Shown: piece by piece, positions 10,928-27,352 of the stretch
Layout of the letters: every line of letters begins with the position of its first letter
Numbering within the stretch: position 1 is the stretch's first letter
Source: Desulfosediminicola ganghwensis
GTDB lineage: Bacteria; Desulfobacterota; Desulfobulbia; Desulfobulbales; Desulfocapsaceae
Reading direction: 5' to 3'
Length of the DNA stretch: 64,000 nucleotides
NCBI RefSeq assembly: GCF_005116675.2
Contig: NZ_CP050699.1
Location: 1,511,001-1,575,000 of the forward strand
Made by a program: the position numbers and the translations under genes
Notes under the pieces: model-generated
What the model was told of the DNA's origin: nothing
The model's database searches: none
Seen by the model: the letters and a program-made list of their open reading frames with translations, nothing else

Positions 10928-12319
10928 CTAGCGGAATTTACCCGGGTCAAGGCTCAGGCGCTGACACAGTTTTTGAATGGCAACTCTGGACAGTCCGCTT
11001 ATCCTGGCAGCCTCCGAGACATTGCCTGACGTCTCCTTGAAGAGTTGTTCAAAATAATTTTTGGTAAACCTGTCGGCGACCGCAGCTTTCATCATTTTGT
11101 ACGGGCCAAGTTCGCCATCGATGCTGGGCACGGCCTGGCCTGGATTTTCGATACGTCCCACAGTGGCCATGGTGATATTGGCTCCCCCGGAGAAAATAAC
11201 CAGTCTTCGTATATAATTCTGCAACTCCCGAACATTGCCGGGCCAATCCTTGGTGCTGAGGTAGGAGAGTACATCGGGCTCCAGGCCGGTTTGTTCGATA
11301 CGCATCTCCTTGCAGGTCTGGTCGAGGAAAAACCGGGTGAGCAGGGCGATATCCTCAACACGTTCCCTGAGCGGCGGCAAATGTATTGTCACCACATTCA
11401 AGCGGTAATAGAGATCTGCCCTGAAGGTGTTTTGGTTGACCTTCTCCTCAAGTTGCTGGTTGGTGGAGGCGATGATGCGTACGTCTGTTTTATAGGTTTT
11501 GGTGGAACCTACCGGGCGAACCTCTCCTTCCTGTAGAAAGCGCAGAAGTTTCAACTGCATGGCGTGGGAAATGTCACCGATTTCATCCAGATGCAGGGTG
11601 CCCAGGTTGGCGGATTGGATCAGACCATCCCTGTCCTTGTCCGCCCCTGTGAAGGCGCCCTTGGTATAACCGAACAGCTCGCTCTCCATCAGCGAGTCGG
11701 GAATTGCCGGGCAGTTCACAGCGATAAATGGTTTATCGCTACGGTTGCTGAGCTGGTGCACCATGCGGGAGGCGAGTTCCTTGCCTGTACCTGATTCACC
11801 GAAGATGAGCACGGGATAATCGGAAACTGCAACCATCTGCAGGGATTTCTGAACCTCGAGCATTGCCGGGCTCTGACCGAGCAATATATCGCTCTTGTTA
11901 CCCTCCAGCATTTTTTTAAGCCGGCTGTTCTCCTGCTCGAGCCGGATATATTCTCTTACCTTATTCAGCGTGCTATAGAGCTGATCCGATGCAACCGGTT
12001 TGGTGAGAAAATCGAAGGCGCCCAGGCGCACAGCCTCTACAGCCTTTTCAATGGTGCCATAGCCTGTCAGGAGCACAACCTTGATACCGGGTTGGATCTC
12101 CAATAGTTTTTTGGACAGGGTAATACCGTCCATGCCTGGCATACGGAGATCGGTGATGACCAGATCTACCTGGTTACCGGCAACTGCGGCCAGAGCCTCT
12201 TCACCGCTTGAGGCAGTACTGATTTGTATCTCAGGGTATTCCACCGAAATCAGCCTGGAAAGACCACGGCTGAAGTCGGGCTCGTCATCGACGAGAAGTA
12301 TATGCATTTCAACCTTCAT
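10928..12319 (-). CDS. NtrC-family sigma-54-dependent response regulator
   Basis: A 463-aa cytoplasmic transcription activator. The receiver domain (1-120) has acidic pocket DDE at 11-13, phospho-acceptor D57 in VITDLRMPGMDG, and K107 in FLTKPVA. The AAA+ domain (about 145-380) contains Walker A GESGTGKE (174-181) and the sigma-54 contact loop GAFTGA (221-226). A Fis-type helix-turn-helix closes the protein (NVSEAARISGLSRVAIQKL). It starts 12 bp after the kinase gene with an AAGGA site, so the two are co-transcribed and form a two-component pair. The two YeiH exporter modules upstream on the same strand each carry a good sigma-54 promoter, making them likely targets; this link is inference. 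Confidence 0.93.
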   Translation of the reverse strand: MKVEMHILLVDDEPDFSRGLSRLISVEYPEIQISTASSGEEALAAVAGNQVDLVITDLRMPGMDGITLSKKLLEIQPGIKVVLLTGYGTIEKAVEAVRLGAFDFLTKPVASDQLYSTLNKVREYIRLEQENSRLKKMLEGNKSDILLGQSPAMLEVQKSLQMVAVSDYPVLIFGESGTGKELASRMVHQLSNRSDKPFIAVNCPAIPDSLMESELFGYTKGAFTGADKDRDGLIQSANLGTLHLDEIGDISHAMQLKLLRFLQEGEVRPVGSTKTYKTDVRIIASTNQQLEEKVNQNTFRADLYYRLNVVTIHLPPLRERVEDIALLTRFFLDQTCKEMRIEQTGLEPDVLSYLSTKDWPGNVRELQNYIRRLVIFSGGANITMATVGRIENPGQAVPSIDGELGPYKMMKAAVADRFTKNYFEQLFKETSGNVSEAARISGLSRVAIQKLCQRLSLDPGKFR

Positions 12320-12330
12320 GGTTGTGTTCC

Positions 12331-14808
12331 TTAACTATCGCTGGCGGGGAAATTCAATTCAAAGACAGCACCGCCTTTTGGCAAAGAACGGGCTTCAATA
12401 GTGCCACCTAACTCTTCCATGGAACGGTAGATGATCGCCAGTCCCAGGCCTGTTCCTTTGTTCACGTCCTTGGTGGTGAAAAACGGGTCGAATATGTAGG
12501 GGTGGATGGCAGGGTCAATGCCGGTGCCACTATCTTCGACCCTCAATTGTACCACATTTGTTTCTTTAAGGTAATCAATGTAAACATCTATGGTACCGTT
12601 TGCCTCCGAAACCGCGTCAAGTGCGTTAAGGAGTAAATTGAGTACGATGTGTTCAATAACACTTGGTTCGACCAATACCCTGCGATGAGCATCGGAGCGG
12701 TGACAGCGAAGGGTTACATTTTCTTTAGCCGCCTTCACTTTGAACACATTGGTTACCCCCTCGGTGATATCGCCAATTACAGTGTGGCTGGACATGGAAA
12801 CTTTGGGTCGGGAAAAGTTCAGCAGATCGAGCAGCACCGCCTGAGCCTGCTGGGTATGTTTGAGAACCACATTGATATCTTCCTGCAATTCAGGGTCGGA
12901 GACCGATTTTTTCAGCAGCTCGGCATAACAGAGAATTACGCCGAGCGGGTTGTTCAACTCATGGGCCAGGCCGGCAGCAAGCTCACCCACCGTGGCCATT
13001 TTCTCCGATTGAACCATCTGCTGGAGAACTCGTTTGTGTTCGGTATTCTCCTGAATTGACAGAATAAGACGAGGAGGCTGGTCACCTGCGGGTATCAGCG
13101 GGAAGGTGGAAAGCAGGAAGCTTCTGCCGCCATCGATAGTAATCTCTTTTGATTTTGAGCTGTATGGTGGATTTTCCGGCAAAAGTTCGGAAACCTCTAT
13201 GCCGCCGAGGGACACAAGGCATTGAGTTATGGTCTGCTTCCTGTCGTTAAAGGCAAGTGATTCAAGCAGGTTGTTCGCTGCGTCATTGGCCATGATAATC
13301 GCCCCCGGGTGTTCTATCAGCATCAACGGATCTGTGATACCCTCAAAAATCGCCTGGAGGTTGTTGGTCTGGCGCAATACGGAATCAAGTGCCGCAAGGT
13401 TCTCTGCAGCGATACCAAGTTGCCGGCCAACGGCATTAAACATCTCTACTTCATCGTCGCTGAAGCTTTTACCGGGAGGGCGCTGTAGATACAATAATCC
13501 TTCGATATTATCATCACTGCTGCCAATGGGAATGAATACAGTGTTATACTGGGCAACTATCCGTGGTCGAGTGAGAAGATCTACGTGATTTGCAGGCAAT
13601 GCCGGGGCCATGGCGCCTGGCGGCCAGCTATAGCTGCGGTTACTGGAAAATGTGCAGATGTATGATGCAGACTGCAGACCAAGTGTCCTGGTGAGTACAG
13701 GCAACACTGATTGCCAGAGATCGGACTGTTTCTGACTTGCTTTCAGTGACCTGAGAATATCGACGAAGAGCTCGAAATCCCGGCGCCTGCGTAAGTTTTC
13801 TAAAGAGAGCTGCTCTGTTCTGCGTGCTACTTCTGCTTCGAGATTGGCTGTGTGACTCTTAAGTTGTTTGTCTGTCTCATAGAGATGCTGGCCCAGTCCC
13901 TCCATGGCTTCTATCATCTCTTCAACTTCATCGCCGTGTTCCACTTTCTTGAGCAACTCGCTGCCTTTCTGGTCTTTAAAACTATTACGGAACTGGCTGG
14001 TGAGAGTGCGCAGGTTAACAATGACAACCCTTTGAAATGCCTGATAAATAAGAAATAGAACCAGGCATGAAATTGTCAGGTAGATAACAACATAGAGCAG
14101 GAACTCACTGTCATTTTTGGCAGCATACTCTTTGGTGGGGATGCCAACCAGATCTATGCCGTCGATGGAATCAAGAGTGTGATAAAATCCCGAATCCGGA
14201 TAAAGATCTGCCAATTCTTTGGGGGAGTCGGCTGGGTCACCATGGCAGAGCAGGCAACTCTGACCGTAGCGAACAGGGCGGGCCATGATGTAAACGTCCT
14301 GCTCCCTGATCTTCTTTGTACCCGTCCAGAGCTCCTGATCCTGGTTGTCCCGAAAATATTGAACCAACTCCTTTTCAACCTTATTTGCCTCAAATTCGGG
14401 ATTTCTTGCCCCGATAGCTACCCGTCGGAAAATATAGTTCAGGCTAGCGGAATGATTCTGCTCCATGACGCTGCGGGTGATGAAGGAGGAGGACATCGCT
14501 TCTCTTATAAACTTGTCGGGAACCTCTTCAAACATCTTTGGGCGCAGGGATAGCTGTACATATTTTTTAACAGAATCGACCTGGTCGAGAACGATCTCCG
14601 CTCTGGTGCTTACCTCATCCTGCAGGGTTTTCTGCATGAAAAACCAGAGGCCGGTGATATTGATGACACTGATGATCATTATGATGAAAATCAGGCCTAG
14701 GATAAATTTGCTTTGCAGTGAATATAGTCGGGGAATTCTCATGATACCTTTTCGTTGCTCTGGTACTTCGATTGATGCCGGTTTTTTGATTTGAGAGTTT
14801 TCGGGCAT
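12331..14808 (-). CDS. Membrane sensor histidine kinase with CxxCH (Tll0287-like) periplasmic sensor domain
   Basis: An 825-aa inner-membrane kinase paired with the adjacent NtrC-type regulator. TM1 is at about 34-57 and TM2 at about 238-257. The periplasmic loop between them matches the DUF3365/Tll0287-like type and contains one heme-binding motif, CLLCH at 185-189, so it probably binds a c-type heme and senses redox state or a small ligand. A HAMP-like linker and coiled segment follow, then a GAF-like domain (about 350-470), a PAS-like domain (about 480-600), HisKA with H616 in AHELNNPLG, and an HATPase with GTGLGLAI near the C-terminus. It is separated by 129 bp from the small membrane-protein gene upstream and probably belongs to the same transcription direction and regulon as the exporters. 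Confidence 0.9.
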   Translation of the reverse strand: MPENSQIKKPASIEVPEQRKGIMRIPRLYSLQSKFILGLIFIIMIISVINITGLWFFMQKTLQDEVSTRAEIVLDQVDSVKKYVQLSLRPKMFEEVPDKFIREAMSSSFITRSVMEQNHSASLNYIFRRVAIGARNPEFEANKVEKELVQYFRDNQDQELWTGTKKIREQDVYIMARPVRYGQSCLLCHGDPADSPKELADLYPDSGFYHTLDSIDGIDLVGIPTKEYAAKNDSEFLLYVVIYLTISCLVLFLIYQAFQRVVIVNLRTLTSQFRNSFKDQKGSELLKKVEHGDEVEEMIEAMEGLGQHLYETDKQLKSHTANLEAEVARRTEQLSLENLRRRRDFELFVDILRSLKASQKQSDLWQSVLPVLTRTLGLQSASYICTFSSNRSYSWPPGAMAPALPANHVDLLTRPRIVAQYNTVFIPIGSSDDNIEGLLYLQRPPGKSFSDDEVEMFNAVGRQLGIAAENLAALDSVLRQTNNLQAIFEGITDPLMLIEHPGAIIMANDAANNLLESLAFNDRKQTITQCLVSLGGIEVSELLPENPPYSSKSKEITIDGGRSFLLSTFPLIPAGDQPPRLILSIQENTEHKRVLQQMVQSEKMATVGELAAGLAHELNNPLGVILCYAELLKKSVSDPELQEDINVVLKHTQQAQAVLLDLLNFSRPKVSMSSHTVIGDITEGVTNVFKVKAAKENVTLRCHRSDAHRRVLVEPSVIEHIVLNLLLNALDAVSEANGTIDVYIDYLKETNVVQLRVEDSGTGIDPAIHPYIFDPFFTTKDVNKGTGLGLAIIYRSMEELGGTIEARSLPKGGAVFELNFPASDS

Positions 14809-14937
14809 CGGTTCAGTCGAAATGTACCTTATTTTTCAGAGCAGCGAAAGATATCGAGTTGTGCGCAGGATTTTGAGGGTCCTGCCGGGTGAGACCTTTT
14901 TGGGGTGCAGCAAAAGAGCAAAGGGGCTCTTGCCGGT

Positions 14938-15237
14938 TTATTCACCCACAATGGCACTGTTTTTTTGGATTGCCGCGATGCGTTTTGGTCGGTCGGCAAA
15001 ATACTCGATGGTAGATCTGGCATTCATGTCGGCATGTGAAACAATCTCCACGCTGGTGTAGTAGAAATTGCCAGTCTCGATGCCGGTTTCGTCTATGTAA
15101 TCTGCAAGCCCCTGGATAGAGTCGCTGGAACTGGTGATTGCAGGCAAAACGTAGAAGGTAACACCCCAGACTGCGATAAGGCTGGCTGCAAGTTGGCTAA
15201 TACCTTTTACTTTTGATTTTTTCAATTCCTTGCTCAT
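14938..15237 (-). CDS. Small single-TM protein paired with YeiH-family exporter (copy 1)
   Basis: A 99-aa protein starting at the ATG at 15237, with GGAGG 5 nt upstream. A longer in-frame extension to 15423 would overlap the end of the exporter gene and has no such site. There is one N-terminal membrane segment (SQLAASLIAVWGVTFYVLPA), then a short soluble part (DYIDETGIETGNFYYTSVEI, ARSTIEYFADRPKRIA). It is clearly paralogous to the 83-aa protein at 17887-18138: both have V.GVTFYVLPA/VWATTFHVLPA, ADIN.RSTIEYFA and TGNFYYT/TGEFYYT. Both follow a YeiH-type gene by about 100 bp, so it is probably an accessory subunit of the exporter. I know of no named family. Confidence 0.8.
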   Translation of the reverse strand: MSKELKKSKVKGISQLAASLIAVWGVTFYVLPAITSSSDSIQGLADYIDETGIETGNFYYTSVEIVSHADMNARSTIEYFADRPKRIAAIQKNSAIVGE

Positions 15238-15332
15238 TTGTGCCTCCAATGAAGGGGCAGCGGAACCCGAAGGTTCCGCTGCCAGATGTACTTTTTTCAA
15301 CTGTACTACTTTACATTCCACGTATCCACGAA

Positions 15333-17087
15333 TCAGATTGCTGCGGTGATTTCCGGGAACACCAGGTAGAACATGATGTAGGCCATGGTAAGGGTAAGTA
15401 CCAGGTTGAGGGACTGACCGCATACGTAGAGAATGAACGGCTTACCACCCTTGAAGTAGGGAGCCAGCTCACGGAAGTTGGTAGCCAGACCGATCGCTGC
15501 AAAGGAGAAGCAGAAGAACCAGTCACGGCAGATGCGGGTGAAACCTCTCAGTACACCGTTGTCGATCATGGTGAAACCAGCGTCCGGACCGATCTTGGTG
15601 TAAAGGAAAGAGAAGAATACGGAAGCCGCGAGGAAGCCGAGTACGAACTTCGGAAAGCGGTGCCAGATTTCCATCCAGCCAACCTTGTTGCCGGTCTCTT
15701 TCGGCTCTACCTTCATGGTCCAGTACACCGCGATACCAAAAGCGGTAACACCGATCAGAACGTTCTGGATCATCTTGATGGTTGCAGCAACATAGAGTGC
15801 TTTCTCGGAGAGGAATGCTCCAGCTGCGGCAACAGCACCGGTTGCATCGATGGTACCACCCATCCAGGCACCACCAAGGATGTACGGCATACCGGTGGCT
15901 TTAATGATGGCCGGCATAACGATCATCATGATGGAGGTGAAAACCAGGGACAGGCCGATGGCGAGGGTCAGCTCTTCTTTCTTGGCGCGACATGCTGCGG
16001 CGGCTGCGATTGCGGCAGAGGTACCACATACGGACATGTCGGAAGAGATGACCATGTTCAGGGTCTTGGATTCAATCTTCAGCACTTTCTGGCCAAACCA
16101 GAAGGTAGTGATGAGTACAACAGGGGTAACGAACCATGCTACGAAGATACCAGGAACACCGATTGCTACGATCTTGTTAAAGAGGATCTCACCACCGAGC
16201 AGAACAAGACCGGTCTTGATGAAGAACTCAACCTGCAGGGCAGGCTTAACCCAGTCGGGAGTGCCGACGGTGTTAGCTATCAGCATACCGAGGAAGATTG
16301 CCCAGGCTGCGTAACCGAAACCATAATGTTTAGCGGTGGCCTGACCGGCCATGAGATAGGCGAATACAGAGAGTGCAAAAACAGCGGTAAAACCGATAAG
16401 GAATTTCTTTACATCGCCACCCATGAAATGGATACCGATGGAGAAGAACAGACCTGAGACTACCATAAAGCCGAGCAAACCAGGAATGACATTATACGGT
16501 TTGGCGTTCGCCTTGGATTTGGCAGAAGAAGCCTTGGCGTTGGCGCGTCTCCACTGATCAATCTCTGTCTCAGCAGTTGCATTCAGAGAAGCATTGGCAA
16601 AACCTGCAGCAGCGGCGATATCCTGGGCGGCCAATGCGGTGGCGCGTGCTTCAACAGCGGCAGCGGCTGCTTTTTCGGCGGCAGGCGCTTTCTTTACGTT
16701 GATCGCGTCAGCCTGTGCCTGGGTTCGGTACAGTGCATCAAGTGGATTGCTGGTCCAGCCTTTAGGCTTGTCCATGAATCCTGCGATCTTTTTAGCAAAA
16801 CTCTGATTTCTTGCCCGAACTTTCTCTTTTGCGTCCTGAGCTTCAAAGAATTCTAAAGTCTTGAATGGTGCCTTTGCAGCTTCCTGCTCCATGATGGCAT
16901 TTGATTTATCAAATACCTCGTGCATGTTTGCCGGTGGCCGTGGCATAAAAATGATGAGACCTGCGATAAGCAGGGAAAAACCGAGCCAAATTGCCCAGTA
17001 ATCTTCCTTCAACCACAAATCGCTCCACTTGCTTTGTCCTGTGTCGACGACGATATTACTGTCGACTTGAGTCTTTGCTTCTGCCAT
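15333..17087 (-). CDS. YeiH-family putative sulfate exporter, long form (copy 1)
   Basis: A 584-aa inner-membrane transporter of the UPF0324/YeiH (Cons_hypoth698) family, whose usual length is about 340 aa. The conserved core (about 200-584) has around ten membrane segments and the family motifs [27 protein letters not shown] and [19 protein letters not shown]. The extra N-terminal 200 residues comprise one membrane segment (AIWLGFSLLIAGLIIFMP) and a charged, alanine-rich helical region. The start ATG has GGGAGAG 6 nt upstream. It is followed by a small TM protein gene. Its paralog at 18250-20001 is almost identical from about residue 390 on, also at DNA level, but diverged at the N-terminus. 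Family members are annotated as sulfate exporters; the real substrate (sulfite, sulfide or another sulfur species) is not shown by the sequence. Confidence 0.88.
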   Translation of the reverse strand: MAEAKTQVDSNIVVDTGQSKWSDLWLKEDYWAIWLGFSLLIAGLIIFMPRPPANMHEVFDKSNAIMEQEAAKAPFKTLEFFEAQDAKEKVRARNQSFAKKIAGFMDKPKGWTSNPLDALYRTQAQADAINVKKAPAAEKAAAAAVEARATALAAQDIAAAAGFANASLNATAETEIDQWRRANAKASSAKSKANAKPYNVIPGLLGFMVVSGLFFSIGIHFMGGDVKKFLIGFTAVFALSVFAYLMAGQATAKHYGFGYAAWAIFLGMLIANTVGTPDWVKPALQVEFFIKTGLVLLGGEILFNKIVAIGVPGIFVAWFVTPVVLITTFWFGQKVLKIESKTLNMVISSDMSVCGTSAAIAAAAACRAKKEELTLAIGLSLVFTSIMMIVMPAIIKATGMPYILGGAWMGGTIDATGAVAAAGAFLSEKALYVAATIKMIQNVLIGVTAFGIAVYWTMKVEPKETGNKVGWMEIWHRFPKFVLGFLAASVFFSFLYTKIGPDAGFTMIDNGVLRGFTRICRDWFFCFSFAAIGLATNFRELAPYFKGGKPFILYVCGQSLNLVLTLTMAYIMFYLVFPEITAAI

Positions 17088-17197
17088 GATTCTCTCCCGT
17101 GAGTTAAAATGCTCAAGTGTAATGCCTAAAAAATGTTCACCCGGATGCCCTGATTGAGACCAGGTGAAAACTGCTTTATATCAACACTGGTCATACC

Positions 17198-17213
17198 AGC
17201 AAATCTCATGCCA
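17198..17213 (-). promoter_or_regulatory. Sigma-54 (-24/-12) promoter upstream of YeiH copy 1
   Basis: On the minus strand the site reads TGGCATGAGATTTGCT, with GG and GC separated by 10 bases as required for sigma-54. It lies about 110 bp before the exporter start. A matching site precedes the second exporter, and a sigma-54 activator is encoded downstream. Confidence 0.75.
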
Positions 17214-17297
17214 TTATGTGAATTATTTCCTAACTATTTAATGTTAGGCACCGGGTGCGCAAATGCACAGAATGGCCACAATGTGGATGTGTAAACT

Positions 17298-17328
17298 CAG
17301 GTTTGCAGTTGTGGCTATCAGGTTTGCA
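17298..17328. repeat. Pair of 10-bp direct repeats 21 bp apart upstream of the sigma-54 promoter
   Basis: CAGGTTTGCA occurs at 17298-17307 and again at 17319-17328, a spacing of two helical turns and about 90-110 bp upstream of the -24 element. This geometry suits an enhancer site for the NtrC-type activator. A similar GTTTGCA core occurs near 20225 upstream of the second exporter promoter. Confidence 0.4.
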
Positions 17329-17780
17329 CTGCTGGGCGCGGGTGTGGTGGTTGTGAAAAGTCTCTAGCTCAAGGGCCTGATATTGCGTTTTTTGACTATA
17401 GCTTTTGCTGAAGAGTGAAACTGATGAAGGTGCAGGGGGAAGGGGTGCTTTGGGCATGCCTTTGGAGCAGGTGGTGCTGCTGGTCCGGATTGCTGATTGT
17501 TCAGGTGTTGCCAGATCCAAGATTTTGACAGTACGTCATGTTGTTCTAATTTACGGGCTGAAATACGGGAAAAGGTGTGAATCGTAAGGGCTGTACCCTG
17601 AGGGCATCTCTTAAATAGTATTGTTTGATATGGTGTGAAAAAACGCTTAGGGCAATTCGTACTGGATCTCTGCCATGTTGCCGTGTTTTGTAGCAAAAGT
17701 AGGTTGACTTCCTTTCGAGTTCTGAGGGGGGATTACCGGGCTGGGGCAGCCTTTTGCAGGCGGGAAAGACTGGTGGCATG

Positions 17781-17837
17781 AAAAAAGGCGGTAGGTGAGC
17801 AGATTGCCGTGAAGCAAGCTACTCACATACCGCCTTT
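17781..17837 (-). terminator. Intrinsic terminator after small TM protein copy 2
   Basis: On the minus strand an AAAGGCGGTATGTGAG arm (17837-17822) pairs with CTCACCTACCGCCTTT (17799-17784), one mismatch, and is followed by a run of T residues overlapping 17781-17786. It lies 50 bp after the stop of the 17887-18138 gene, so module 2 is terminated before module 1 begins from its own promoter. Confidence 0.75.
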
Positions 17838-17886
17838 AAATACGTGTGGGGTACGTTGGAATGAAAGGTCGTGAGGTCTGTTGTTG

Positions 17887-18138
17887 TTACTTATGGGCAA
17901 AATACTCGATGGTTGAACGGGTGTTGATATCGGCCTGAACGACAACTTCGACGCCTGTATAGTAGAATTCACCAGTATCGATTTCAGATTCATCAATAAA
18001 GTCAGCAAGTGTAAGGATGTCGGGGTGAGACTGGGTCAACGCAGGCAGAACATGAAATGTAGTGGCCCAGACGACAAAGCAGCAGGCAATGAGTTGGGCA
18101 AAGCCCCGAACCTGGCTTTTGGGTGATGCAGTTTCCAT
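17887..18138 (-). CDS. Small single-TM protein paired with YeiH-family exporter (copy 2)
   Basis: An 83-aa protein with an N-terminal membrane segment (LIACCFVVWATTFHVLPALT) and a short acidic soluble tail (LADFIDESEIDTGEFYYTG, INTRSTIEYFAHK). A GGAGA site precedes the ATG. It is paralogous to the 99-aa protein at 14938-15237 but lacks its last 15 residues. It lies 111 bp after the exporter gene at 18250, with a terminator behind it. The conserved pairing supports a role as an exporter subunit or regulator; no known family is recognised. Confidence 0.78.
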   Translation of the reverse strand: METASPKSQVRGFAQLIACCFVVWATTFHVLPALTQSHPDILTLADFIDESEIDTGEFYYTGVEVVVQADINTRSTIEYFAHK

Positions 18139-18249
18139 AGATTTCTCCTCGGTGAAGAATGCGGCGGAGCCTGTAAGGGCTCCGCCGCATTGTGTTCTAT
18201 CTGCCCGGGTTATCCCCGTGCAGTTTTACTGTTTAATTCCCCAATTGTA

Positions 18250-20001
18250 TTAGATCGCAGCAGTGATCTCCGGGAATACCAGATAGAACATGATATAGGC
18301 CATGCCAAGGGTAAGAACCAGGTTCAGAGACTGGCCGCATACATAGAGGATGAAAGGCTTGCCGCCTTTGAAGTAGTGAGCAAGCTCACGGAAGTTGGTA
18401 GCAAGACCGATTGCAGCAAAAGAGAAGCAGAAGAACCAGCCGCGGCAGGTCTTGGTGAAACCTCTCAATACTCCGTTGTCGATCATGGTGAAACCAGCGT
18501 CCGGTCCGATCTGGGTGTAGAGGAAAGAGAAGAAAACAGAAGCCGCGAGGAAGCCGAGTACGAACTTCGGAAAGCGGTGCCAGATTTCCATCCAGCCAAC
18601 TTTGTTGCCGGTCTCTTTGGGCTCTACCTTCATGGTCCAGTAAACGGCGATACCAAAAGCGGTAACACCGATCAGTACGTTCTGGATCATCTTGATGGTT
18701 GCAGCAACGTAGAGTGCTTTCTCGGAAAGGAAGGCACCGGCAGCGGCAACGGCACCAGTCGCATCAATGGTACCACCCATCCAGGCACCACCGAGGATAT
18801 ACGGCATACCGGTGGCTTTAATGACGGCCGGCATAACGATCATCATGATGGAGGTGAAAACCAGGGACAGGCCGATGGCGAGGGTAAGTTCTTCTTTCTT
18901 CGCGCGACATGCTGCGGCGGCAGCGATAGCTGCAGAGGTACCACACACGGACATGTCAGAGGCGATAACCATGTTCAGAGTCTTCGACTCCATCTTCAAT
19001 ACTTTCTGACCGAACCAGAACGTAGTGATAAGTACTGTAGGGGTTACGAACCATGCTACGAAGATACCAGGAACACCGATGGCAACGATCTTGTTGAACA
19101 GTACCTCGGCACCGAGCAGTACCAGGCCGGTTTTGATGAAGAATTCTACCTGTAGGGCAGGCTTGACCCAGTTAGGTGTGCCGACGGTGTTGGCGATAAT
19201 CATACCGATGGCGATGGCCCAGGCAGCGTAACCAATGCCGTAGTGTTTAGCGGTAGCCTGGCCGGCAAAGACGTAGGCAAGAAGGCTTACTGCAAAAACA
19301 GCGGTGAAACCTTTCATGAAGCCGGTAACAGAGCCACCCATAAAGTAGATACCGATAGAAAACAGCAGGCCGGTGGCAAGAAACATTCCAAAGAGGCTTG
19401 GAAAGAGGTTAAAAGGCTTGTTCTTGGTCTTTTTCTTGGCAGAAGATTCTTTGGCGTTGGCGCGTCTCCAGTCATCGATCTTCTTTTCAGTAACACTGTT
19501 CAGCTCGGTGTTGGCGAAACCTGCGGCAGCGGCAGCGGTCTCTGCTGTGACAGCAGCAGCCTTTGCAGTAACGGCAGTGGCTTTGGCAGCCTCATACTTC
19601 GGCATGGCCTTGGCATTCTTGGCGTCCGCCTGCTCCTGGGTCATGATGAAAGCGTCAAGCGGATTGGAGGTCCACTTCTTTGGCTTGCTCATGAATGCAG
19701 CAATATCCTTGGCAAAACCCTGGCTTCTTGCCTTGATCTTCTCTTTGGCGTCCTGGGCTTCGATAAAAGCTACAGTTTTAAATGGAGCTTTTGCTGCTTC
19801 TTGCTTCATGATTGCATTTGAAGTGTTGAACACTTCCTGCATGCCTTCCGGCTGACGTGGCATAAAAATAGCCAGGCCGGCAAGCAGCAGGGCAAAGCCG
19901 AGCCAGATTGCCCAGTAATCTTCCTTCTTCCATAAATCACTCAACGAACTTTTTGCTTCGTCGACGACAACGCTGTCCGTCTTGATCGTACTGCCTGCCA
20001 T
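18250..20001 (-). CDS. YeiH-family putative sulfate exporter, long form (copy 2)
   Basis: A 583-aa paralog of the transporter at 15333-17087. The start is set at the ATG at 20001, which has GGGAGGG about 6 nt upstream; an upstream in-frame ATG at 20052 has no site and would add 17 residues not found in copy 1. Architecture is the same: one N-terminal membrane segment ([18 protein letters not shown]), about 150 residues of charged Ala-rich helix ([20 protein letters not shown]), then the YeiH core with [14 protein letters not shown] and [20 protein letters not shown] sigma-54 promoter lies about 105 bp upstream. The C-terminal 200 residues differ from copy 1 at only a few positions, whereas the N-terminal helix is well diverged. 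Confidence 0.88.
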
Positions 20002-20107
20002 AATTCCCTCCCTGAGATTAAAGCAAAATTGTTTGCAACAGATACCGGCCAACTCCGGCCGGTATCGCTAATAAAAAAATGCCATGAAAATTGTTTGATT
20101 CAGGGAG

Positions 20108-20123
20108 AGCAAGGTCTGTGCCA
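20108..20123 (-). promoter_or_regulatory. Sigma-54 (-24/-12) promoter upstream of YeiH copy 2
   Basis: The minus strand reads TGGCACAGACCTTGCT, a near-consensus -24/-12 element (TGGCAC, five bases, TTGCT) with the required 10-base spacing between GG and GC. It lies about 105 bp before the exporter ATG. Confidence 0.82.
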
Positions 20124-20352
20124 TGTTGGTTCTGTATGTTTGAAATGACCCAATAACAGCAAGATATTCGGCGGAGCTGGGTGTGGCCGGGAAGATAGCT
20201 GCAGACAAAGTGTTAAGGTCTGTTTGCACACAGGAAAGACGCTATCATATGCATGGAGTGAAGCTTGGTGGAGGAGGTGAAGAAGCAGTTCGAGGCAGGA
20301 TAGGATTTGACGATCTGGTTCGGCTCCGATGGAGCAGGTCTGATTTTGTGAT

Positions 20353-21162
20353 TCAGTTATTGCGGAGCTGGTCTGATGTCCGTAGCTTAGCTGGGGACAG
20401 GACCGAGCCCTTTAAGGAAGACCGCTCTGCCTGATATGTGCTTTGCAATTTCTGCGCGCAGGCGACTATGGGAGAGCCCAGCAGCTGGGTGACACCAATC
20501 GCGGCGAATACATTTTCTGAAAACTGCGAGAAGTATCTGGAGTTTACGGCCCTGTGCACCACCATGGGAAGCATGAACTCAGGATCAAATTCCGTTACAA
20601 TCAAGCCGTTACGTTCAAACTCCTGAGAAATTTCTTTGCGGGTGAATAGAGTATAGTTTCTGGTGTTTTTTTCAAAGAGTTTCTTTATCGGGAAAAGCAT
20701 GGAGTAGAGGATGTTGGTACTGCGCCAATCGGGATAATCTATAATTACTGCTTTTTTGGCGACTCTACTCAGTTCTCGAATGAGAAGTCGCCAACGTTCG
20801 ACATGGGATATAAGCCTGAATGCGAGAACCACATCGAAACAGTTGTCTTTAAACGGCAGGTTGAGCATGTCGCAGGTATGGTAGCTGTAGCTTCCCTGTA
20901 AACCTGCGGCCAGCAACCTCTCTTCGCAACAATCGTCACTGCCGGTTATGGTTACATTGTAACCTTTCTGGATGAGGGGGATTGCCAGTTGGGCATGGCC
21001 TCCGCCCACGTCGAGAATTGTTGGCCTGTAGTAACCCGCCAGGTATTTCTCAACTTTTGCGAATTGCATCTCGAGAAAATACTCACCGGTCTTGCCATGA
21101 AATCTGCTGGCATAATCTTCAGAAGAAGTTGAAATGTCAGCCGTTTCTTCGTATTTATCCAT
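20353..21162 (-). CDS. Class I SAM-dependent methyltransferase
   Basis: A 269-aa cytoplasmic protein with the Rossmann methyltransferase pattern: motif I ILDVGGGHAQLAIPLI, motif II region YNVTITGSDDC, and a later VVLAFRLISHVERWRLLIRELSRV segment typical of UbiE/Methyltransf_11-type enzymes. The acceptor substrate cannot be read from the sequence. It stands alone on the minus strand between the exporter promoter region and the tolC-like gene, 62 bp downstream of the latter, so it may be transcribed with it. Confidence 0.85.
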   Translation of the reverse strand: MDKYEETADISTSSEDYASRFHGKTGEYFLEMQFAKVEKYLAGYYRPTILDVGGGHAQLAIPLIQKGYNVTITGSDDCCEERLLAAGLQGSYSYHTCDMLNLPFKDNCFDVVLAFRLISHVERWRLLIRELSRVAKKAVIIDYPDWRSTNILYSMLFPIKKLFEKNTRNYTLFTRKEISQEFERNGLIVTEFDPEFMLPMVVHRAVNSRYFSQFSENVFAAIGVTQLLGSPIVACAQKLQSTYQAERSSLKGSVLSPAKLRTSDQLRNN

Positions 21163-21223: not shown

Positions 21224-22549
21224 CTATCTGTATGTGCGGCCCTGCAGTTCGGGGATAACCCCGGTGGACCACTCGATTCGCGCCAGCGATCTCAAGTATG
21301 TGTAATACGTTACAACCAGATTAGTCTGGTTTTGGGTAAGAAGCAACTGGGCATCGTTAAATTCCAGCCAGTCCCCAAGACCTGTTTGATACCGTTTATC
21401 AGCCAGTTCCAGGTTCTCTTCGGCGAGCCCTAGGGACTGGCCGGCAATATCAACACCTTCTTTGTTTTCAACAGCACGCAGGTAGCTGTCAGTTACCTGT
21501 TGCGTCACTGACAGGTTGAATTGGCGATAACCTGCCGTAACTTCACGCAGGTTGGCCTTGGCCTCGGCAACCAGCCCCTCTGTCTCAAAGCCGGAGAAAA
21601 GCTCCCAGGTGGCACCGACGCCTACCTGCCAGGTGTCATTCAGGCTTGAGATATCGGTATCGTAACCTGTATATGAGCCGGTCACACCGATGGACGGCCA
21701 GTAATCGCCTTTGGCCGAGCGAAGATTTGCTTCAGCCGCTTCAATAAGGTAGCCGAATTCACTCAACCCGGGTCGGTTTTGGTCCGCGGTAACCAGAAGG
21801 TTATTCAGTGTATCGGGGATCGGTGGCTTATCTGTAACCAACTCCCCCAGGCCGGTCTCATCTATTACAACCTGATAGTCCCCGTTGTTGGGTGCACCAC
21901 CTAAAGTTTGCTCAAGCGCGACCCTGGCCGACTGTAAATCAGCTTTGGCCTGCACCAGGCCCAGCCGTTCGTTAGCCAGGTTGACTTCGGCGTTTGTCAC
22001 ATCGATTCTGGTTCGTATACCCGCTTCAAGATATTTTCTGGCTCGATAGAGTTGGCGCGTATAATTAGTTACAGCCTCTTCGGCTACGACTATGAGCTCC
22101 TGACTCTCCAGTACGTCGTAGAATTGATTTTTTACATCAAGGACCACATCGTGATAAACTTGTCTCAGATTTTCTTCCGACGCTGCAACATTGAAGGCGC
22201 TGGCGTCGATCAGACCGGTGGTTCTGCCGAAGTCATAGATGAGTTGGGAGAGTGTCAAAAGCAGGGAGGCGACGTTATCTTCATCCTCAGGACTTAGACC
22301 GTCTACATATACCCTGCCGTAGTCAGCAGTTGTGCCAAGACGCGGCAGGTAGCCGGATTTCGCCTGGGTCAGTATTCCCGCATCTCCGGCGAGCTGCTGT
22401 CTGGCAATTTCTATCTGCGGATTTTGCTGCAGGGCGATCTCGATCAGGTCATTGAGCCCGAGTTCTATCGTTTCCGATCGAAGCCGACCGGGGGCGATCA
22501 AGGTCAGGACAATCATCAGCAACGCAACCATGTTGGATTTATAGTGCAT
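21224..22549 (-). CDS. TolC-family outer-membrane efflux protein
   Basis: The start is placed at the ATG at 22549, with GGAGA 7 nt upstream, followed by a signal peptide (VALLMIVLTLIAPGRLRSET). The mature protein (about 415 aa) has the long alpha-helical and duplicated structure of OEP/TolC proteins: ALQQNPQIEIARQQL near the N-terminus, and the second repeat with LRSAKGDYWPSIGVTGSYTG and YQTGLGDWLEFNDAQLLLTQ. It forms the outer-membrane channel for a tripartite pump. It is divergent from the MFP and RND genes at 22768-27352, across a 218-bp intergenic promoter region, and is the natural partner of that pump. Confidence 0.92.
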   Translation of the reverse strand: MHYKSNMVALLMIVLTLIAPGRLRSETIELGLNDLIEIALQQNPQIEIARQQLAGDAGILTQAKSGYLPRLGTTADYGRVYVDGLSPEDEDNVASLLLTLSQLIYDFGRTTGLIDASAFNVAASEENLRQVYHDVVLDVKNQFYDVLESQELIVVAEEAVTNYTRQLYRARKYLEAGIRTRIDVTNAEVNLANERLGLVQAKADLQSARVALEQTLGGAPNNGDYQVVIDETGLGELVTDKPPIPDTLNNLLVTADQNRPGLSEFGYLIEAAEANLRSAKGDYWPSIGVTGSYTGYDTDISSLNDTWQVGVGATWELFSGFETEGLVAEAKANLREVTAGYRQFNLSVTQQVTDSYLRAVENKEGVDIAGQSLGLAEENLELADKRYQTGLGDWLEFNDAQLLLTQNQTNLVVTYYTYLRSLARIEWSTGVIPELQGRTYR

Positions 22550-22767
22550 AATATATCTCCAGACGAAAAATTGTTGAGCGTTCTTCAGGGCTCCAACCTC
22601 GTTGAAACCCAACAGGATCAGGGCCTGGTTGGCGAAACTCGTAAAACCGATCAAGAAATCGATCTGGTTAAATGTCTTTTATGGTAGAACAGAATTTAAA
22701 TTAGAGCAACAATGTGTTAGGTATAAGGAGGATCTTTCTTACGATTACACCTTAAAGGGGGATATAG

Positions 22768-23946
22768 ATGACCCATCTGAGTCCTATTATCTGGTTATTG
22801 ACAACCTTGGTCATGGTCCAGGGTTGCAGTGAGGAACAGCAGCAGGCTCCACCCCAGGAACCGCCGCCGCTGCCGGTGGAGGCGATCACTGTGCAGGATG
22901 AGCAGCTGCCCATCTGGATCGAATATGCCGGCAAGACCGAAGCCACCAAACGGGTTGAAGTACGAGCCAGGGTCGCCGGTCGGCTCGAGGAGGCGCTTTT
23001 TGCTGAAGGTGATTACGTCGAGGAAGGCGACGTCCTGTTTACCATAGAAAAAGATACCTATGAAGCTGCGCTCGACAGCGCCAAGGCCCGCCTGGAGCAG
23101 AATAAGGCGTCCCTGGCCCTGGCAAGAAGGGACGTGGCGCGCTACCAGCCGCTGGTGGCTGAAGAGCTGGCCCCCAGAGCCACCCTGGATCAGTATGAGG
23201 CACGGGTGGCAGAGCTGGAGGCCACCTTGAAGTCTGACCAGGCCGCCATCCGTGAAGCGGAACTCAGTTTAAGTTATACCGATGTACTTGCCCCAATATC
23301 CGGCAGGGTCAGCAGGAGGTTTGTCGATATCGGCAACATCGTCGGCTACGGAGATCAGACAGTCCTGACAACTATCGTCAGCGATGACCCTATGTATGTC
23401 TACTTCAACCCGACCGAACAGCAGTTCCAGATGATGCGGCAATACAAGTCGCAGGATAACATGGAGGCCAGGGTCAACGTGCCCGGCAACACAGGGGGAA
23501 TGCTTGAGCGGGGGCAGCTGGAGGGCCTGGTCGATTTCACTGATAATCGTGTTGACCGTACTACCGGTACCATTACCATGCGGGCCTCGGTTGCCAACCC
23601 CGATCATTCTGTGCTTGAGGGAACCTTTGTCTACATCGAGGTGATGGTGACCGACCAGGTCAGCTTTCTGGTGGTGCCCCCGGCAGCCGTCCATGAGGAT
23701 CAGCGCTCCAGCTTTCTCTATATTGTGGGAGAAGAGAGCAGGATCAAGCGGGTGGATGTGAGAAAAGGATATGAGAGCAGACATTACACCATTATCACCG
23801 AAGGGCTCCAGGGCGGGGAGCAGGTGATAGTTTCCGGCTTTGCCAAGCTTCAGCCGAATCGTAAGGTCGAGGTGACGGACGCCACCGACACAAAGGGGAT
23901 ACAGGCGTATCTCAAAGAGCAGAATATGCTGCCGTCAACGCAGTAG
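22768..23946 (+). CDS. RND efflux periplasmic adaptor (membrane fusion) lipoprotein
   Basis: A 392-aa AcrA/MexA-type adaptor. The N-terminal signal ends in the lipobox VQGC, so the mature protein is probably lipid-anchored in the inner membrane. The typical order is visible: beta-barrel/lipoyl segment (VEVRARVAGRLEEALFAEGD), coiled hairpin (ALDSAKARLEQNKASLALA), lipoyl return (LSYTDVLAPISGRVSRRFV), then the C-terminal beta domain. It lies 256 bp before the RND permease gene and is divergent from the tolC-like gene. The drug or metabolite spectrum is unknown. Confidence 0.93.
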   Translation: MTHLSPIIWLLTTLVMVQGCSEEQQQAPPQEPPPLPVEAITVQDEQLPIWIEYAGKTEATKRVEVRARVAGRLEEALFAEGDYVEEGDVLFTIEKDTYEAALDSAKARLEQNKASLALARRDVARYQPLVAEELAPRATLDQYEARVAELEATLKSDQAAIREAELSLSYTDVLAPISGRVSRRFVDIGNIVGYGDQTVLTTIVSDDPMYVYFNPTEQQFQMMRQYKSQDNMEARVNVPGNTGGMLERGQLEGLVDFTDNRVDRTTGTITMRASVANPDHSVLEGTFVYIEVMVTDQVSFLVVPPAAVHEDQRSSFLYIVGEESRIKRVDVRKGYESRHYTIITEGLQGGEQVIVSGFAKLQPNRKVEVTDATDTKGIQAYLKEQNMLPSTQ

Positions 23947-24202
23947 GCCGGTAGAGTACTTCAAATTGCACGCCAAACGGGCTACTCCTGGTCTTAAGGG
24001 AGCCATCCTTTGGACGCAGCGTGCAGCTGCTTTGCCGGATATCTATATCAACAAAGAGAAACTGATAACAATTTCACCCTTGGGCGCGAGTCGATCCGGC
24101 CCCCAGCAGGCGCAGTTCTCACGATTTGCAGGGCAGAATGTGGAAATTGCCTGACGTTGCCTGTGAAGGTTCAGTTCAGCTCGTGAAATAAGCGGGGTAG
24201 CC

Positions 24203-27200
24203 ATGTTTTCTATATTTTTTATCAAGCGGCCCATCTTTGCGATGGTTATCTCTCTGCTGATTGTCCTGTCCGGGCTGGTCTCCATCTTTATCCTGCCGGT
24301 GCAGGAGTACCCAGATGTCTCTCCGCCCACCGTTGTTGTGTCCGCAACCTATGTCGGTGCCAATGCTTTCACGGTGGAGGAGGCGGTAACACGCCCCCTC
24401 GAGGATCGCATTAACGGGGTCAAGGGCATGATCTATATGCAGTCCTCCAGTACCAGTTCGGGCAATTCCAGCATCAGCGTCTATTTTGAACCTGGCTATG
24501 ATATTGATATTGCTGCGGTGGATGTGCAGAACAAGGTCTCAATCGCCACTCCGCAACTGCCGTCGGAAGTGCGGCAGCAGGGCGTGGTGGTTGATAAGAA
24601 GTCGCCTGCCATCGTCTGTCTGTTTTCTCTCACTGGTGATGAGCGGTATGACGAGAGCTTTTTAAGTAATTTTGTCACCATAAATATCCTTGACGAATTG
24701 CGCCGTATTCCCGGGGTCGGCTCAGTGGAAAACCTCGGTGAGAAAAAGTACTCCATGCGGGTCTGGCTGGACCCGGACCGGATAAAATCGATGGGCATCA
24801 GCCCCGGTGATGTGGTGGCGGCGATACAGTCCCAGAACCGGCAGGCGGCCCTGGGAAGGCTTGGTTCACCTCCGACCTTTGACGATCAGCAGCTGCAGTT
24901 TGTGCTCACCACCGAGGGCCAGCTGGAGGATGTGAAACAATTTGAGAATATCATTATCAAGTACCTGGATGACGGCACCTTGGTGTATCTGGCTGATGTG
25001 GCAGATATCGAGCTCGGTGCGGAAAACTATGACTGGAACGCCAGGGTGAATAGCAAGCCGGCCGCCTCCATCGCCATCTATCAGCTGCCGGAGGCCAATG
25101 CCCTTTCGATAAAGAAGCTGGCGGTGGCCAAGATGGAGGAGCTGAAACGGCGCTTTCCGGAGGGTGTCACCTATTCAATCCCCTATGACACCACCCTGTT
25201 CGTTGAAGTGGCCATCCAGAACGTGGTGGTCAACCTCTTCATCGCGGTGGCCCTGGTTATCCTGATCGTCTTTATTTTTCTGGGTTCCTGGCGGCCGACC
25301 ATTATTGCCTCGGTGGCGATCCCTGTTTCTCTGGTCGGCACCTTCGCGGCCATGCTGGCAGCGGGTTTTTCCATTAATTTCCTGACACTTTTTGGCCTGA
25401 TCCTGGCCATCGGCATTGTGGTTGACGACGTCATCCTGGTGGTGGAAAATGTTGAGCGAATCATGAATGAGGAGCCGGCGCTGACCATCCCCCAAGTGGT
25501 GAAAAAGGCCATGCTGCAGCTTATCGGCCCGATCATCGCAACCACCCTGGTGCTGGTAGCTGTGTTCGTACCGGTTTCCATGATGCCGGGCCTGGTTGGG
25601 TCGGTGTACCGGCAGTTTGCCTTGACCATCTCCTTTGCGGTGTTGATCTCCTCGCTCAACGCCATGACCCTGTCGCCGGCCTTATCGGCCATCGTCGTCA
25701 GGAGGCTGCCGGAAGGCCAGGGAAAGTTCATTTTCTTTCAGCTGTTCGACAAGTTCTTTGCCTGGCTTACCCGTTGGTATATCCGGCTGGTGGAACTGCT
25801 GATTAAGCTTCGTTACCTGGTGGTGCTGGTTTTTATCGGACTGTTGGTATTGACCGGATGGGTGCTGAAAACCACCCCGACCGGCTTTGTTCCGGAAGAG
25901 GATAAAGGGGTGCTAGTCATTATGTTCAACCTCAAGCCAGGTATGGCGCTGAACCGCACCAGCGAGGTGCGCGAGGAACTGGAGGAGATTCTGCAGGATA
26001 TTGAAGGGGTTAAGGATATGGTGATGATCGATGGCTACAACATGCTCTCTGCCACCCTTGACACCAGTGCGGGAGCAGGCTTCGTGTCACTGGACTCCTG
26101 GGGTGATCGCAAGAAAGTGCAGAGGGATATCGAGACCATCCTGGCCGAGACGAACATAAAGGCCCAGGGAATCACCGAAGCGAACGTGGTGGCGTTTAAT
26201 ATCCCGGGCATCCCCGGCATCGGCACGGTGGGTGGCTTCGACTTTCGTCTCCAGGATTATCTGTCGGGGGACCTGAACAACTTTGTCAGCTATGCCTATA
26301 CACTGATAGCAGAAGCGAATAAGGATCCTCGCATAGGGGTGGCCTATACCACCTACGCGCCCAATTATCCTTTTGTCAGCATTGATATAGACCGCAACAA
26401 GACGGCGGCGCTGGGGGTCGATCTGGCCGAACTCTTCACCACCCTGCAGACCTATCTTGGCTCCTTGTATATCAACGATTTTACTAAGTTCGGCAAGGTC
26501 TTCAGGGTGTATGTCCAGGCCGAGATGGAGTATCGCAGTGAGATAAGGGATATCAATGAGCTGTTTGTCCGCAACCGGGAAGGCAAAATGGTGCCGGTGG
26601 CCTCTCTGGTCAGCCTGAACCAGACCATAGGCCCTTCCGATCTGCCCCATTACAACATGTACCGCACCATCACCATCAACGGCTCGGCCGCCCCCGGTTA
26701 CAGTTCCGGCCAGGCCATGGAGGCCCTGGAGGAGATCGCCCAGCGGGTGCTGCCGACCGACGGCAGCTATGGTTTCGACTGGTCGGGAATGTCCTATCAG
26801 GAACGGTTGGCGGGCAATGCCCAGATCTATGTCTTCACCTTCGCCCTGATCGTGGTCTACCTGGTACTTGCCGCCCAGTATGAGAGCTGGGTTTTGCCGA
26901 TCATGATCATGGTTTCGGTGCCGCTGGTTATGCTGGGGGCACTGTTTGCCCAGAACCTTGCCGGGCTCGACAACAACCTGTTCGCCCAGATAGGCTTGGT
27001 GTTGCTGATCGGTCTTTCCTCCAAAAACGCTATCCTCATTGTTGAGGTGGCCAAGGAGAGCCGAGAAAGCGGCATGTCCATCATCGAATCGGCGGTGAAT
27101 GCAGCACAGCTTCGTTTCCGGGCCATCATGATGACCATTCTCTCATTTGTGTTCGGTGTTTTTCCCTTAGCTGTGGCCACCGGTGCCGGAGCGATGACCA

Positions 27201-27352
27201 TGAAATCGATTGGCGTAGTGGTGCTCGGCGGTATGGGAGCCGCCACACTGATCTCCACCATGCTGGTGCCATGTGTTTACGTGCTGCTTGAAAGCATGCG
27301 GGAGCTGGTGGTGGATGTGCAGGAGGAAGTCCGTAATCGGGAGATGATCTAA
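24203..27352 (+). CDS. RND-family efflux permease (HAE1/AcrB-like)
   Basis: A 1049-aa inner-membrane proton-driven pump with the usual AcrB length. It begins FFIKRPIFAMVISLLIVLSG (TM1), followed by the porter loop (PVQEYPDVSPPTVVVSA). TM4 carries IGIVVDDVILVVENVER, with the paired aspartates of the proton relay. The second half has GLSSKNAILIVEVAKE, the family motif containing the essential lysine. The second large periplasmic loop and a terminal TM block with GVVVLGGMGAATLISTMLVP complete the fold. Together with the adaptor and the divergent TolC-like protein it forms a tripartite pump spanning the envelope. Substrate cannot be inferred. Confidence 0.95.
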   Translation: MFSIFFIKRPIFAMVISLLIVLSGLVSIFILPVQEYPDVSPPTVVVSATYVGANAFTVEEAVTRPLEDRINGVKGMIYMQSSSTSSGNSSISVYFEPGYDIDIAAVDVQNKVSIATPQLPSEVRQQGVVVDKKSPAIVCLFSLTGDERYDESFLSNFVTINILDELRRIPGVGSVENLGEKKYSMRVWLDPDRIKSMGISPGDVVAAIQSQNRQAALGRLGSPPTFDDQQLQFVLTTEGQLEDVKQFENIIIKYLDDGTLVYLADVADIELGAENYDWNARVNSKPAASIAIYQLPEANALSIKKLAVAKMEELKRRFPEGVTYSIPYDTTLFVEVAIQNVVVNLFIAVALVILIVFIFLGSWRPTIIASVAIPVSLVGTFAAMLAAGFSINFLTLFGLILAIGIVVDDVILVVENVERIMNEEPALTIPQVVKKAMLQLIGPIIATTLVLVAVFVPVSMMPGLVGSVYRQFALTISFAVLISSLNAMTLSPALSAIVVRRLPEGQGKFIFFQLFDKFFAWLTRWYIRLVELLIKLRYLVVLVFIGLLVLTGWVLKTTPTGFVPEEDKGVLVIMFNLKPGMALNRTSEVREELEEILQDIEGVKDMVMIDGYNMLSATLDTSAGAGFVSLDSWGDRKKVQRDIETILAETNIKAQGITEANVVAFNIPGIPGIGTVGGFDFRLQDYLSGDLNNFVSYAYTLIAEANKDPRIGVAYTTYAPNYPFVSIDIDRNKTAALGVDLAELFTTLQTYLGSLYINDFTKFGKVFRVYVQAEMEYRSEIRDINELFVRNREGKMVPVASLVSLNQTIGPSDLPHYNMYRTITINGSAAPGYSSGQAMEALEEIAQRVLPTDGSYGFDWSGMSYQERLAGNAQIYVFTFALIVVYLVLAAQYESWVLPIMIMVSVPLVMLGALFAQNLAGLDNNLFAQIGLVLLIGLSSKNAILIVEVAKESRESGMSIIESAVNAAQLRFRAIMMTILSFVFGVFPLAVATGAGAMTMKSIGVVVLGGMGAATLISTMLVPCVYVLLESMRELVVDVQEEVRNREMI

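Follow-up and report, generated by a model that had tools for sequence, protein, structure and literature searches.

Gene organization of the two modules

The 64,000-nucleotide (nt) stretch of the Desulfosediminicola ganghwensis genome analysed here (contig NZ_CP050699.1; hereafter, the window) contains two tandem modules, each consisting of a gene for a membrane transporter followed by a gene for a small protein with one predicted transmembrane (TM) helix. The four genes, numbered from the first letter of the window and with products given in amino acids (aa), are the following.

18250 to 20001, minus strand: transporter 2, PSE family (PF03601 match, AlphaFold2 model), 583 aa
17887 to 18138, minus strand: small partner protein 2 with one TM helix, 83 aa, motif FYYTGVE
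15333 to 17087, minus strand: transporter 1, PSE family (PF03601 match), 584 aa
14938 to 15237, minus strand: small partner protein 1 with one TM helix, 99 aa, motif FYYTSVE

The common order and the spacing of about 100 base pairs (bp) described for the two modules in the first-pass annotation were reproduced with exact coordinates, the gap between transporter and small gene being 111 nt in module 2 and 95 nt in module 1, and the small proteins of 83 to 99 aa, held there to be homologous, are 55 to 57% identical to each other. Between the two transporters, identity amounts to 90% for the core and 65% for the N-terminal extension; comparison of the nucleotide sequences gives 84 to 96% for the second half of the gene and mostly 52 to 76% for the first. 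Since the second half is far more similar than the first, this pattern suggests that the transporter core has been homogenised between the copies by gene conversion.

Pairing of the small gene with the transporter across genomes

The genome searches covered one phylum. The transporter was searched for in 395 genomes of this phylum, in 91 of the window's family and in 348 of the class of genome G132 (probably Desulfovibrionia), the three sets overlapping; the search in that class contributed 30 loci among the matches listed, and 80 further places were picked blind to the small gene. We assigned to the branch of the window transporters those genes showing a tblastn identity of at least 45% to transporter 2 near its C-terminal end. 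With the final profile of the small protein, the small gene was found directly 3' of the transporter, on the same strand, in 151 of the 156 branch transporters, and in none of 28 PF03601 genes of mixed length lying outside the branch in the same phylum (best E, 0.61). Two transporters matching in the core only (L091 and L092, with 52 and 50% identity) were moved by hand to these 28 controls, and with them the count becomes 151/158; two others (L089 and L123), having no 3' end, were left unscored. The final profile was trained on matches among the same loci, and a profile built from only 17 sequences, which is independent apart from the window's family that supplied them, recognized a small gene downstream of 147 of the 156 transporters.

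Searches that start from the small protein are biased toward pairing, and the transporter-first count is to be taken as the fair one. In the window's family, such small-protein searches led to 18 places in 14 of 93 genomes, each beside a transporter of this kind, and the transporter lay directly upstream in 25/25 named loci of a public genome collection, which were found via the small protein and partly overlap the unnamed loci. When all branch members were gathered, including the loci found by the small protein, 161 of 166 were paired. No plasmid copies were found at E 1e-50.

As for the specificity of the profile, 8831 other reading frames of the loci yielded four matches at E 0.01 (three with the first profile), comprising two true members (L003/L046 and L023), a fluke in L041 and one weak match at E 0.0078. 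Three weak small-protein matches (L039 to L041; E 0.001 to 0.006) were treated as false, L039 and L040 having no transporter match.

Because the small gene accompanies nearly all transporters of the branch and none of those in other PF03601 branches, the pairing is not a product of chance. The first-pass annotation had proposed that the small protein works with long transporters of this kind, to be sought across the phylum; counted from the transporter, the small gene proved neither absent nor randomly placed within one PF03601 branch, and the proposal does not extend to the PF03601 genes outside it.

Five branch transporters are unpaired, one of which ends 65 nt before the end of its contig, and four of which represent real gaps. 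Two of the latter (L149 and L150) belong to genomes G672 and G680, in each of which another copy (L155 and L156) is complete; in the remaining two, 533 nt (L217) and 688 nt (L203) are available beyond the transporter, the farthest small-gene start in the family being at 372 nt. The genomes of these last two, G800 and G606, in which a complete module was not seen, keep the small gene far off, beside unrelated genes. The association is very strong, is specific to one transporter branch and is kept in two genomes with a broken operon.

The displaced small genes are L246 in G800, next to an apparent ribosomal protein S1 gene, and L242 in G606. The small gene of genome G128 (L023/L238) lies between radical-S-adenosylmethionine-like and coenzyme-A-transferase-like genes. 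These neighbours were named by eye.

An independent function in envelope stress, with nothing but a common operon or regulon tying the small gene to the transporter, would agree with the orphan small gene of G128 and with the Desulfovibrio vulgaris operon which, in the available part of its description, also holds universal stress proteins (PMC10102598). Such a function is at odds with the frequencies inside and outside the branch (151/156 versus 0/28), with the persistence of the small gene in trans in G800 and G606, where neither a small neighbour of the transporter nor a complete module was found, and with the doubling of modules as pairs in the window, in G573, in G490 and in others, and we consider it very unlikely. 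A functional partnership of the small protein and the transporter is, in our judgement, highly probable.

Features of the transporter

The window transporters score 155.1 and 158.6 bits with PF03601 (gathering cut-off, 24.5) and 63.5 and 64.4 bits with TIGR00698, the NCBIfam model of YeiH, missing its cut-off of 232.6. Since the latter scores are little over one quarter of the cut-off, profile matching places these proteins in the PSE family outside YeiH proper; the membership of the YeiH subfamily assigned in the first-pass annotation finds no support, and the name is a loose one. The genome of the window contains two further PF03601 matches (G000:C1:2630815-2631735 and 1302392-1303336, in shorter frames of 352 and 422 aa), for a total of four.

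The AlphaFold2 model of transporter 2, with a predicted local distance difference test (pLDDT) value of 90 and a predicted template-modelling (pTM) score of 0.86, presents TM1 at residues 27 to 46, an ordered helical extension at about 52 to 198, between TM1 and TM2, and an elevator-like core at 223 to 583. In the model, 11 long helices of the N-terminal and core regions possibly span the membrane, and two broken pairs are possibly re-entrant. The PSE_2 form of the PSE family (PF03601 / TC 2.A.98) is described, in the available part of the source, with the N terminus inside, 11 TM helices and two re-entrant helices (PMC8396727); helix order and loop charges of our model would fit this arrangement, the membrane placement being a reading of the model. 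Because of helix parity and of the charges of the short loops, the 52-198 extension is probably periplasmic. Different from the PSE family and YeiH, the window-type transporters have this extra ordered helical extension of about 150 aa, and different from the 28 other PF03601 genes of the phylum, their branch has a regular small partner gene.

The core could be compared with the elevator-type carriers SbtA, NapA, NhaP and ASBT (CPA/AT), with VIA Z of 10 to 12 (about 11 to 12 for SbtA, NapA and NhaP) and a root mean square deviation of 3.6 to 4.5 Å, a level rated by the tool as common for helical models. Foldseek gave no match to the transporter model at E 0.001, the best being CitS (E 0.014), and the sequence search of the PDB with the transporter gave no match.

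Features of the small protein

In view of its family-wide conservation, a coding artefact was rejected as the explanation of the small gene. The small proteins have a median length of 90 aa, counted from the first possible start, and share a layout of one TM helix, a short helix, a consensus motif and a last helix. What is best conserved is a proline near the outer end of the TM helix (97% of the proteins) and the motif after it, with the family-wide consensus G-I-D-x-[GST]-x-[YLFI]-Y-Y-[TS]-D-[VI]-[EP]. Of the two motifs put forward in the first-pass annotation, TG.FYYT.VE is to be corrected to this consensus, and RSTIEYFA is not family-wide: only its R (68% of the column) occurs widely, the other residues of RSTIEY being common in the window's sub-branch and its nearest relatives.

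For charge, topology and covariation, we used 154 of the 161 pairs, dropping partial or stop-containing transporters; L223, with a reading frame that begins too far upstream, was left out of set A3. Lysine and arginine (K/R) are more numerous before the TM helix in 126/154 small proteins, equal in 20 and fewer in 8, and since positive charges are commoner on that side, the N terminus is probably inside and the C terminus outside. A second, C-terminal hydrophobic segment occurs in 12/154 (L084, L111 to L116, L122, L185, L187, L192 and L193).

The statement that the small protein belongs to no recognised family holds for Pfam and NCBIfam, neither of which matches any of 71 members at E 0.001; for the two window proteins, Pfam gave sub-threshold matches only (DUF4179, E 0.026; DUF2189, E 0.094) and NCBIfam none. 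The search of PDB sequences with the small family returned only 9ivk_A, a "membrane protein binder" (E 0.022), which was disregarded, and Foldseek with the small-protein model gave a single match at E 8.2. In no locus were the two proteins seen to be naturally fused, the longest read-on beyond the match being 21 nt. Word searches of one open-access library, which are ill-suited to a nameless family, turned up no paper that describes these small proteins as a family. AcrZ and KdpF, small single-TM subunits of other transporters, are alike in size, in having one TM helix and in having a product tied to a large transporter; different from them, the small family is without a Pfam or NCBIfam match in the 71 members scanned at E 0.001 and has a conserved aromatic motif after the TM helix.

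Promoters, regulators and junction hairpins

The sequences around the four genes include the following features.

20108 to 20123, minus strand: sigma-54 -24/-12 promoter-like site TGGCACAGACCTTGCT, 106 nt upstream of the transporter 2 start codon
17198 to 17213, minus strand: sigma-54 -24/-12 promoter-like site TGGCATGAGATTTGCT, 110 nt upstream of the transporter 1 start codon
18158 to 18191, minus strand: G+C-rich hairpin at the junction of transporter 2 and small gene 2, read by eye and in the family folding test
15256 to 15283, minus strand: G+C-rich hairpin with a 12-bp stem and a TTCG loop at the junction of transporter 1 and small gene 1, folded
12331 to 14808, minus strand: sensor histidine kinase with a Tll0287/sCache_heme domain (PF11845) and a CLLCH motif
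10928 to 12319, minus strand: NtrC-like response regulator, a sigma-54 activator with GAFTGA in its translation

Scored against the sigma-54 -24/-12 consensus, both window sites fit at 11 of 11 positions. Sites scoring at least 10/11 were detected in 35 of the 81 upstream regions tested (out of 154, and related to each other), with 0.6 expected from shuffles. The window kinase scores 109.4 bits with PF11845 (cut-off, 24.1), and its CLLCH represents the CxxCH haem-c motif; a CxxCH Tll0287-type kinase and an NtrC-like regulator stand beside the module in 12 of the 26 named or window loci. According to the available part of the source, Tll0287 domains fused to signalling modules have, in other proteins, the properties of nitric oxide (NO) sensors (PMC12889525).

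The available portions of work on D. vulgaris describe DVU0943-0946, DVU2133-2132 and DVU0542-0545 as sigma-54 operons, DVU0946 as a response regulator and DVU2133-2132 as apparent paralogs of DVU0943-0944 (PMC3333781, PMC4641369), with DVU0946 and DVU0539 binding these operons (PMC3333781) and two PSE transporters co-regulated with lactate genes (PMC4641369). From these two papers, DVU0943 and DVU2133 are likely to be PSE genes. The window operons show the combination of a -24/-12 promoter with an adjacent NtrC-like regulator that serves as criterion for a DVU0946-type regulon; no clear regulator site shared by the regions upstream of the two window modules was seen, the DVU0946 motif being published only as a figure.

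It could be supposed that the small protein is a signalling link that relays the transporter's state to the haem-c kinase, in the way some carriers act as co-sensors: kinase and regulator adjoin the module in those 12/26 loci, the sensor domain of the kinase and the tail of the small protein are both expected in the periplasm, and such operons are bound by DVU0946 and DVU0539 in D. vulgaris (PMC3333781, as far as available). However, 14/26 loci, some being short contigs, have no such kinase nearby, and it is the transporter rather than the kinase that the small gene follows, which makes this role improbable.

The junction hairpin is a family feature, with z < -2 in 46 of 49 representatives, versus 5/21 other same-strand gaps and 5/108 coding stretches; the test covered 108 of the 154 gaps (40 to 130 nt) and 49 of 72 representatives, with start codons set by a simple rule. 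As the main reading of the hairpin, a classic terminator was rejected, a T-run of at least four being present in only 7/49; weak or read-through termination is possible. The hairpin may set the ratio of the two products, through mRNA processing or weak termination. The Rfam scan of 14700-20500 gave no match at gathering scores.

If the hairpin held the small protein below the level of the transporter, a factor for biogenesis, stability or turnover, such as an insertion chaperone or a protease shield standing outside the working carrier, could be envisaged, and the single TM helix, the small size and the retention of the gene even when displaced would suit it as well. The conserved motif after the TM helix, on the other hand, suggests a specific contact on the outer side, and the gene is restricted to a single PF03601 branch; such a factor appears unlikely to us. 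That the small protein is instead a physical subunit of the transporter is reasonably probable.

Origin of the duplicated modules and neighbouring genes

In both trees, the window pair are sisters, and most of the listed members nearby belong to the class of G132. Furthermore, transporter 2 is 74% identical to its best relative of that class among the matches listed, versus 63 to 64% to the matches from its own genus. Because both trees group the window pair with sequences of the other class, and because transporter 2 is closer to that class than to its own genus, the module probably arrived as one unit and underwent tandem duplication afterwards. Modules are doubled also in G573, G490, G544, G495 and others, and the pair of G490 has the order of the window, with two transporters, each followed by a small gene, and kinase and regulator after them.

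The gene immediately upstream of the first module, at 20353-21162 and in the same orientation, encodes a methyltransferase dependent on S-adenosylmethionine (PF08241). Near the modules, at 21224-27352, there are outer-membrane-efflux-like, membrane-fusion-like and 1049-aa pump-like frames, assigned by eye.

Possible function of the two-gene module

The best functional hint comes from D. vulgaris. As far as the available text of the study goes, DVU0543 is a PSE transporter, DVU0544 is a 133-aa protein with one TM helix, and the disruption of either, or of the universal stress protein DVU0545, brought a fitness gain with molybdate (PMC10102598). Like the window, DVU0542-0545 combines a PSE transporter and a small TM protein under sigma-54, a likeness that is one of description only; by this analogy, the shared phenotype of DVU0543 and DVU0544 would point to an oxyanion substrate, which we hold to be somewhat more probable than not. 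Arrangements like DVU0542-0545 were not found in our loci when universal-stress-protein neighbours were sought with a regular expression, which gave one plausible (L087) and two doubtful matches in loci of at least 2800 nt and none in eight larger regions. In Salmonella, YeiH is reported in the available part of the source as the main determinant of sulfite resistance (PMC12880088).

It is possible to hypothesize that each module forms an operon under sigma-54 control, encoding a two-part transporter of sulfur oxyanions in the inner membrane, which would carry sulfite and sulfate and, as an analogue, probably molybdate. The large component would be a PSE-type carrier with an elevator-like core, 11 predicted TM helices and an additional helical cap in the periplasm, and the small component an accessory subunit with one TM helix and a short periplasmic tail bearing the conserved aromatic motif. 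The TM helix of the small protein would pack against the carrier and its acidic tail would lie at the basic cap, stabilising or gating the carrier; the hairpin would fix the ratio of transporter to small protein, and the kinase would turn the operon on upon NO or redox/sulfur stress. On balance, we favour this overall reading, in which a sulfur-oxyanion transporter under sigma-54 control has the small protein as its accessory subunit. The word exporter, used in the first-pass annotation, goes beyond the published molybdate data, which are compatible with uptake too, and the chances of export and uptake seem to us about even. As for the docking, the tail of the small protein is negative in 142/154 pairs and the transporter extension positive in 143/154, and an electrostatic contact between them may tentatively be proposed. 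Distances among the small proteins also track the extension (r 0.79, partial 0.36) slightly better than the core (r 0.75, partial 0.18). The cap as docking site is, in our judgement, less likely than not.

Several observations weigh against this reading. Four branch transporters (L149, L150, L203 and L217) are without a small gene beside them, and in G128, which carries a small gene, nothing matches the transporter query at E 1e-10. Among the kinase-adjoining loci with enough upstream sequence, 4/10 reach a score of at least 10 for the sigma-54 site. The extension is rich in K/R, which by itself favours a cytoplasmic location. The correlation of small-protein distances with those of the extension is confounded by shared ancestry, and residue covariation gave neither a cap signal nor an interface, with the extension present in 10 of the top 40 pairs and supplying 123/280 columns, and with a shuffle control that left relatedness in place. 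Finally, the molybdate phenotype extends, in the available text, to the universal stress protein DVU0545 (PMC10102598), polar effects of transposon insertions within an operon are possible, and the molybdate effect fits uptake and export alike.

A stronger version would make the small family the obligate second subunit of the oxyanion carrier of sulfate reducers, which would move sulfite and sulfate (and molybdate) over the inner membrane, possibly as an overlooked route of uptake or exchange, switched by a haem-c sensor of NO or redox state; we regard it as a rather unlikely extension of the accessory-subunit reading.

The transport of sulfate and sulfite, and of toxic analogues, through the membrane of sulfate reducers is still poorly known, and in the available text of a 2018 survey of their sulfate transporters a term search found no use of YeiH, DUF698, UPF0324 or PF03601 (PMC5840216). 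The pair described here offers a defined two-gene target, tied to a sigma-54 and haem-c sensor circuit. If the proposed reading is true, it would give a role to the small protein that stands behind 151/156 transporters of the branch and lies outside the Pfam and NCBIfam models, and the near-constant pairing suggests that this transporter branch works as a two-part machine in sulfate-reducing bacteria.

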